Shown: positions 37,085 to 38,548 of the stretch, in pieces
How positions within the stretch are numbered: position 1 is the first letter of the stretch
How the letters are laid out: each line of letters opens with the position of its first letter
NCBI GenBank assembly: GCA_031263195.1
Contig: JAISGD010000016.1
Span: 1 to 64,000 of the forward strand
DNA: 64,000 nt
Direction: 5' to 3'
Origin: Campylobacteraceae bacterium
Lineage (GTDB): Bacteria > Campylobacterota > Campylobacteria > Campylobacterales > Campylobacteraceae
The notes under the pieces: model-generated
Databases searched by the model: none
What the model was told of the DNA's origin: nothing
The model's input: the letters and a program-made list of their open reading frames with translations, nothing else
Program-made: the position numbers and the translations under genes

Positions 37085-38323
37085 TTATAACTCTTGCCAA
37101 TAAAAATAGGGATAGCCGTTGTTTTTATCGCTGTCTATTTTCCAAGGAGCAGTGTCATTATCTCCGAATTGCCAGCCAAGACCCGTTTCATATGTACTCC
37201 GTGTTTTTAACTCTCCTATGGTTTTGTCTATTCCATGATAAATTACATTGCCACCATTTGAAAAACCGTTTTTTGTTAAATAATCTTGAATTGATACTTC
37301 ACCTGTCATACTATTTAATGCGAAATTGTTTGAAATAAAGGTTTGACCTGTATAGTCATTGTTAACACCAATAACACGATTTACTTCATAGTATCTTTTA
37401 ATCAAACCATTGATAGCGACGTTGTTTAAGACGTTGGAATAATCACTAATCCATCCCGCTATGCCACCGAGACCACGAGCATTTGTCATGTTACCGGTGA
37501 TACTTCCCGTGGAGTAAGAGTTTGTTATATTGATAATATAAGAATCTCCTACGATACCGCCAACTTTATAGTAGCCACTGATATTTCCAGTTGAGTAAAC
37601 GTTGGTTATATTGGTCATGTAAGCATTTCCCACGATACCGCCGACATAACTGTAACCGCTGATACTTTTCCCATCCGCCATCTCAACTCCGAGATTTTTT
37701 ATCTGAGCATATTCGGCATTACCGAAAAATCCGATTGCATAATTAGCAGATGTTCTGTTTATCCAGAGATTTGTTATCTTGTGTCCGTTACCATTAAAAA
37801 TACCTGCAAAGGCACCTGTAGAGCTAGATGAGTAACTTCCTACGATATCCACCCGTTGCTGTCAAAACCAACCCCGCTTTCATCTAACGCTATATCGTTT
37901 AAGAGAATGTATTTGCCGGCAAGGTTAGCATTGATAGAGGCTAAAGCATCTTGAGAGATTATCTCTTTAACGTTTGACAGAGCATAAAAGTTTACACTTT
38001 TACTCATTAGAGTATAAGAGGTTACGGATGAACTGCTATCTGCGAGATACCAATCACTAATACCGTACGCCGTTTTGTTTGAATTAAGCGCTACCCTATG
38101 ACCTGATGGCAAATTATCGTATTTAGCTAACAGATTTAAGTTTTCATCATAAAAACTTACCGAATTAGTTGCGCCAGGAGCGTTATTCGCACTTGATGAA
38201 CCTCCGCCACTACAGCCGACCAATGAAAAACTAAAAAAGAAAGCTAATAAGAGAGAGAGAGAGAGAGAACGCTTTAATCTTAAATATATATAAAGCTTTA
38301 AAATGGGTCGTGAAAGACAACAT
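37085..38323 (-). pseudogene. GLUG-repeat lipoprotein gene, out of frame at two places
   Basis: The parts of one surface lipoprotein are present in three frames. The ATG at 38323 follows AAAGGGG by five bases and opens MLSFTTHFKALYIFK. It runs into a (TC)9 tract and stops soon after. One frame over, the h-region (LSLSLLLAFFFSFS) and lipobox LVGC (Cys at 38215-38217) lead into GGGSSSANN and about 120 residues. This frame ends at TAG near 37846. A third frame continues 255 residues with GLUG repeats (YVGGIVGNAY, KVGGIVGDSY, GLGGIAGWIS), FNGNGHKITNLWI and a C-terminal end. One extra TC unit and one extra base near 37851 would restore a protein of about 410 residues. GLUG proteins are often adhesins. 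Confidence 0.7.
38251..38268 (-). repeat. (TC)9 dinucleotide tract inside a signal peptide
   Basis: Nine GA units on the plus strand, (TC)9 on the coding strand, lie between the ATG at 38323 and the lipobox. They encode alternating Ser and Leu in the hydrophobic core. From ATG to the lipobox-frame codon at 38220 is 103 bases, one more than a multiple of three. Ten, seven or thirteen units would bring the two into frame. Confidence 0.85.
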
Positions 38324-38371
38324 GCAGACCCCTTTAATTTGAAATTTATTCATGAAAAATGAATAGTGTTT

Positions 38372-38377
38372 ATTATA
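38372..38377 (-). promoter_or_regulatory. Predicted -10 box of the GLUG lipoprotein gene
   Basis: The minus strand reads TTTTTGATATAATAAACAC. TATAAT is about 50 bases before the ATG at 38323, with AAAGGGG between them. The presence of promoter, ribosome site and ATG in order supports that start. The GATATAATAA core resembles that at 397-402. Confidence 0.45.
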
Positions 38378-38510
38378 TCAAAAATCAATATAAAGATAGC
38401 GGTCTTACCGATAATAATGAATAAAATCTAGAGTTTCTTAATAATCACAAATAAATATAGAAAACGGAAAGAGTGTTTATTTTACACAAAAGCTTTATAA
38501 CAAACAAAAC

Positions 38511-38541
38511 GGTTTGTCTTGGAAAATCTCCAAAACAAACC
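38511..38541 (-). terminator. Terminator of the hrcA-grpE-dnaK operon
   Basis: GGTTTGT...TGGA on the plus strand pairs with TCCA...ACAAACC, a stem of about 11 pairs with a small internal loop. It lies just past the dnaK stop. On the minus strand it is followed by GTTTTGTTTG, a T-rich tail. Confidence 0.6.
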
Positions 38542-38548
38542 AAAAATT

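Follow-up and report, generated by a model that had tools for sequence, protein, structure and literature searches.

The window, as we call the whole stretch of 64,000 nucleotides (64 kb) analysed here, belongs to the draft genome of a member of the Campylobacteraceae (G000; 1.79 Mb in 32 contigs). Its segment 36272-38549 carries a lipoprotein gene placed between dnaK and an acyl-CoA-thioesterase-like gene, which are direct neighbours in four relatives. When we looked for an orthologue of the window gene beside dnaK, these four relatives showed dnaK and then the thioesterase gene, with no lipoprotein gene between them. Judging from gene order, the window gene would represent either a gain in G000 or a repeated loss elsewhere. 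The start of another lipoprotein-like gene lies at 2-379 on the minus strand; by eye, it has an ALVGCS-type lipobox in one frame, followed by a glycine-rich stretch and without a TC tract, and the open frame listed there reads LQCGGGG near the lipobox.

Read along the minus strand, a TATAAT box, an AAAGGGG ribosome-binding site, an ATG, an uninterrupted (TC)9 tract, and the lipobox LVGC follow one another exactly as the initial annotation had placed them (Table 1). The distance from the ATG to the lipobox-frame codon at 38220, once recomputed, is again 103 bases (38323 minus 38220), so that start and lipobox are offset by one base at the present tract length. Translation of the window from this ATG gives the peptide MLSFTTHFKALYIFKIKAFSLSLSLISFLF* and stops after 30 codons. 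In its in-frame form, LVGC would follow a basic n-region and a hydrophobic core, and it agrees with the lipobox pattern [LVI][ASTVI][GAS]C. The tract thus sits between ATG and lipobox, where changes in the number of units shift the frame of the gene, and its repeats read as TCT and CTC in all frames, which by the genetic code gives an alternation of Ser and Leu, free of stops, at any length. A generic sigma-70 scan of the window returned promoters in no greater number than in shuffled sequences, and the TATAAT box was absent from its list; the promoter call therefore rests on the box itself and on its recurrence in paralogues.

Table 1. Features of the lipoprotein locus in the window
Feature	Position	Strand	Remark
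Terminator-like hairpin past dnaK	38510..38542	-	sets the dnaK transcript apart from the lipoprotein gene
Putative -10 box TATAAT, context TTTTTGATATAAT	38372..38377	-	members elsewhere in the family have similar boxes 5' of their starts
Ribosome-binding site AAAGGGG	38329..38335	-	AAAGGGG/AGGAG-type sites before ATG in nearly all members
ATG start codon	38323-38321	-	read from sequence
Leader frame, from ATG to the stop past the tract, 30 aa at the present OFF phase	38231..38323	-	n-region homologous to that of the in-frame paralogue on G000 contig C3
(TC)9, uninterrupted, part of the signal-peptide hydrophobic core	38251..38268	-	paralogues have n = 10, 11, 12, 13
Lipobox LVGC (TTG GTC GGC TGT)	38212..38223	-	offset by one base from the frame of ATG 38323 when n=9
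Mature-protein frame, first part, 127 codons	37840..38223	-	dN 0.17, dS 1.1 against the C27 paralogue
Second frame break	37840..37860	-	differs in length from the C27 paralogue by one base, outside any repeat
Body, second part, 255 codons, GLUG motifs	37085..37852	-	dN 0.31, dS 0.74 against C27

A family of leaders in the genome and across the genus

Copies of the leader of the window gene, which extends from the 5' untranslated region up to the tract, are found elsewhere in G000 at 85-100% identity, and the same leader and tract precede four further lipoprotein genes there. With n=10 (contig C30) and n=13 (C13) the gene is in frame (ON), in the former as far as the contig end, 98 bases later, and with n=11 (C27) and n=12 (C10) it is out of frame (OFF), as it is with n=9 in the window gene (C2). 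It had been proposed from the window alone that 7, 10 or 13 repeats would fuse the two frames; the same-leader paralogues bear this rule out, but the window copy is broken again near 37850. Moreover, the long n-region, initially seen as a weak point of the switch, proves not to be one, as a gene on C3 with (TC)4 is ON with the same start and n-region and without the long tract. Two more distant tract-less leaders on C24 are also in frame, and another distant copy, on C26, is decayed. The bodies are diverse according to Pfam, with GLUG motifs in several members, an RCC1 propeller in L059 (E=8e-96), and Ig-like plus GLUG domains in L054, while a search with the remaining family bodies returned no domain match.

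We found five overlapping matches to a (TC)7 pattern with at most two mismatches, all of them in the tract of the window gene, which is the sole such array across the window; shuffled sequences were expected to give 0.21 and never gave five. We surveyed 14 genomes within the genus and 46 outside it; (TC)9 is present in 11 of the former versus 5 of the latter, and the control repeat (AC)9 in none of the 14. A chance origin of the tract was rejected on the shuffles, the enrichment in the genus, and the control. The leader motif itself is found in 11/14 genus genomes with up to three mismatches, and with up to two in 10/14 and in 0/46 genomes from other genera. Past 27 of the 39 distinct TC tracts retrieved from the genus (n>=7), a lipobox of the form [LF]-x-[GNS]-C-G/S occurs within 120 bases.

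Nineteen leader-type members have a tract with n>=7 and an assignable start; four are ON and 15 OFF, which is compatible with random phase. Many of the relatives are short-read MAGs, and their repeat counts can be wrong. The ON members have a continuous frame (C13, n=13; L063, n=12; L066, n=10; C30, n=10, to the contig end), and the bodies of the OFF members are open over some 196 to 478 codons, to the exception of the window copy and of one member cut by a contig end. Among members with short tracts, L053, L055, L056, and L071 (n=3-4) are intact and in frame, and L061, L067, and L069 are out of frame, with bodies of 37 to 124 codons. The bodies were compared in pairs by simple Nei-Gojobori counting, in which dS was often high; dN/dS is about 0.14 to 0.50, also for OFF-OFF pairs such as those among L059, L072, and L074 (0.30-0.38). 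These values indicate that the bodies of the family are not generally pseudogenes.

Tract length also differs between species at sister loci of the window locus. At a syntenic position between hypF-like and nikR-like genes, the C3 gene of G000 has n=4 and is ON, versus n=9 and OFF in G004 (C14). A second, likely orthologous pair lies beside an asd-like gene, with n=8 and OFF in G007 (C106) versus n=12 and ON in G008 (C17); the two bodies are 63% identical and synteny holds on one side, the other flank being cut by a contig end. We infer that the number of units also changes within one population.

These data point to the following mechanism. Ribosomes would start at ATG 38323 and read the basic n-region (...FKIKAF) into the tract, which would supply a stop-free Ser-Leu-Ser-Leu hydrophobic core in every frame. 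With a repeat number of 1 modulo 3, the frame would run into the lipobox and the body; with any other, translation would end soon past the tract. Slipped-strand mispairing at replication would add or drop TC units, so that export of the lipoprotein would be toggled in random cells. Bodies of several kinds (GLUG, RCC1 propeller, Ig-like plus GLUG, unknown) would stand behind this common leader, and the window gene would belong to that set. We infer slippage within the lineage, as well as expression, lipidation, and surface exposure of the products. The repeats on lipoprotein genes across the genus are very probably a real genome-wide on/off system of a known type, in which the TC tract acts as the switch of a contingency gene belonging to a surface-lipoprotein set with a common leader.

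Other dinucleotide tracts were observed in these genomes. A (GA)9 tract on G000 contig C24 (35651-35668; L012:4152-4169), found also in L145 and L149, lies in frame within a TetR-like regulator gene, where it encodes Glu-Arg repeats, and this gene adjoins genes resembling an RND efflux operon. With 9 units in three species it looks conserved, so that variation is not general to such tracts, but the regulator would be truncated by any change in number. Three (GA)8-10 tracts with common flanks (L009:3706-3725, L015:4079-4094, and L016:3995-4010, on G000 contigs C1, C30, and C31) lie between genes of annotated size, in short frames that begin M(F/L).., continue with (Arg-Glu)n, and then read (D)(N/Y)LK... 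By eye, one of these frames reads on and two stop just past the tract, and two lie upstream of lipoprotein genes; another family of genes switched by repeats may be present here. Finally, G049, from another family of the same order, has many tracts of (TC)9 or more on several contigs, and perhaps represents a Helicobacter-like species with the same dinucleotide.

The second frame break and the state of the window copy

The second part of the window gene body matches the Pfam GLUG family PF07581 (E=4.7e-8; 33.4 bits, against a curated cut-off of 20.5), in agreement with the GLUG-repeat body initially assigned to the gene. The break near 37850 separates it from the first part. As assembled, the window copy would therefore yield only a truncated lipoprotein at any tract length, and lacks the continuous frame of an ON form; even at a 1-mod-3 tract its switch could restore only about 127 codons. 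We considered whether the break might be a second switch and dismissed this, as it falls outside any repeat. With respect to the C27 paralogue, both body parts are under purifying selection (dN/dS about 0.15 for the first and 0.42 for the second), which points to a recent break or to an error. The window copy may be retired or mis-assembled.

The first of these possibilities is that the window copy is a dying pseudogene, the tract offset and the break near 37850 both being decay, while its relatives are still switchable. The position of the break outside any repeat is consistent with this, as is the presence of clearly decayed leader copies elsewhere (C26, L061, L067). However, selection is seen on both parts of the body, the promoter, ribosome-binding site, ATG, and lipobox are all intact, and the break could itself be recent or an assembly error, so we regard loss of this copy as plausible yet short of probable.

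Alternatively, the break, and perhaps the exact repeat counts too, might be sequencing or assembly errors in a gene that is in truth intact and switchable. The draft nature of the 32-contig assembly, the location of several family members at contig ends, and the selection on both halves of the body would all fit such an artefact. Against it, sequencing and assembly errors usually fall in homopolymers or repeats and the break lies outside both; furthermore, miscounting alone cannot yield mixtures of ON and OFF members with intact long-tract bodies in many independent assemblies. We consider this explanation possible, if rather unlikely. As to the slipped-strand layout that had been proposed for the locus, the frame rule and the existence of ON and OFF members support it well for the family, but the window copy departs from it by its second break.

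Leaders and bodies on either side of the tract

Several members of the family combine leaders and bodies in different ways. In G008, two different leaders (n=12 on contig C5 and n=11 on C14) end in the same 119 bases, and in G000 an identical 119-base leader start on C10 and C13 is followed by different bodies. C30 has the leader of C10 and C13, and the start of its body is the same, across 98 bases, as that of C27, which has another leader. Moreover, a site beside glyS holds different lipoprotein bodies in G000 and G005. The assemblies break at the common leader or tract in C10, C13, and C30 of G000 and in C5 and C14 of G008, which points to mosaics of leader and body or to bodies that are duplicated. 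The contig names of the relatives (k119_) fit breaks induced by repeats at k=119, and the contig ends would consequently mark shared sequence.

As contig ends, these junctions suggest a shuffling of leaders with bodies at the tract; they would reflect either duplications accompanied by exchange there or different arrangements of the same parts. We tentatively put forward, as a possibility that we think unlikely on balance, that one TC tract has two jobs across the surface-lipoprotein set of this probable insect-gut genus, slippage for on/off switching and, together with its conserved flanks, a joint at which promoter-leader modules recombine with unrelated bodies (GLUG, RCC1, and others). Were this true, it would mean combinatorial surface variation in a host without adaptive immunity.

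It is also conceivable that the tract is mainly a homologous joint for the exchange of promoter-leader modules and bodies, frame shifts being a by-product. The apparent leader-body mosaics at contig ends (C5/C14 in G008; C10/C13 and C30/C27 in G000) and the site beside glyS with different bodies in two species are what would be expected in this case. However, repeat-induced breaks in k=119-type assemblies look alike for plain duplications, and switching is a direct fit to the frame rule and to the open bodies under selection. Both roles can coexist; we find it improbable that exchange is the main one. Hardly credible is a start of translation downstream or in the lipobox frame, which would leave the tract without frame control: a TTG exists within the lipobox itself, but a start there would delete the signal peptide, ATG, GTG, and TTG are all absent from the lipobox frame between the upstream stop and this TTG, which rules out an alternative signal-peptide start, and in members with short tracts the frame runs on from the same ATG.

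Comparison with known phase-variable genes

Work on phase-variable surface proteins has mainly concerned vertebrate pathogens, where immune escape is the usual explanation. Our literature search found no paper that describes the present genus, and none connecting GLUG proteins to phase variation. Termite-gut MAGs of Campylobacterales are mentioned in PMC9137090, and from this and the names of the records the relatives (Campylobacteraceae MAGs) probably come from termite guts. Should this origin be true, the switching may be driven by phages, gut protists, niche change, or similar pressures that do not involve antibodies. The family offers many loci on which to test such pressures, as well as the role of the repeat as a joint for module shuffling.

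Coding repeats that switch surface proteins are found in the same phylum. In H. pylori, babA, sabA, oipA, and hopZ have CT repeats in the 5' end of the coding sequence (PMC3960876), and the initial view that a dinucleotide in the signal-peptide code is less usual does not hold for this phylum. The likeness extends to the arrangement as a set, the CT-repeat outer-membrane proteins (babA/babB, sabA, oipA/hopH, hopZ) being several paralogous surface proteins with one kind of switch (PMC10564699). The difference lies in the proteins, which are Hop proteins in H. pylori, whereas here a lipobox precedes GLUG, RCC1, or undefined bodies and the switching is predicted from sequence. Accordingly, Pfam gives GLUG, RCC1, Ig-like, or no domains for our family, and no Hop-type outer-membrane protein domain.

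In Neisseria, the opa genes have CTCTT coding repeats in the leader peptide (PMC3960869), and there are about 11 such loci, dispersed and built on the same leader logic, among which recombination occurs (PMC3960869, PMC3745409). The position of the repeat in the region coding for the leader peptide is thus shared, but the unit is a pentamer there and a dinucleotide here, and the opacity proteins have no lipobox. With regard to the bodies, the likeness is to GLUG-motif proteins (PF07581), whose motif is matched by the window gene and by several paralogues. As far as can be read from the genes, the switch works like those of the H. pylori CT-repeat and Opa genes, and the proteins stand outside those families. 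The design is already well known from H. pylori CT repeats and Neisseria Opa, and it appears here on a set of lipoproteins: a probable Helicobacter-style CT switch that recurs genus-wide in a lineage of the Campylobacteraceae.
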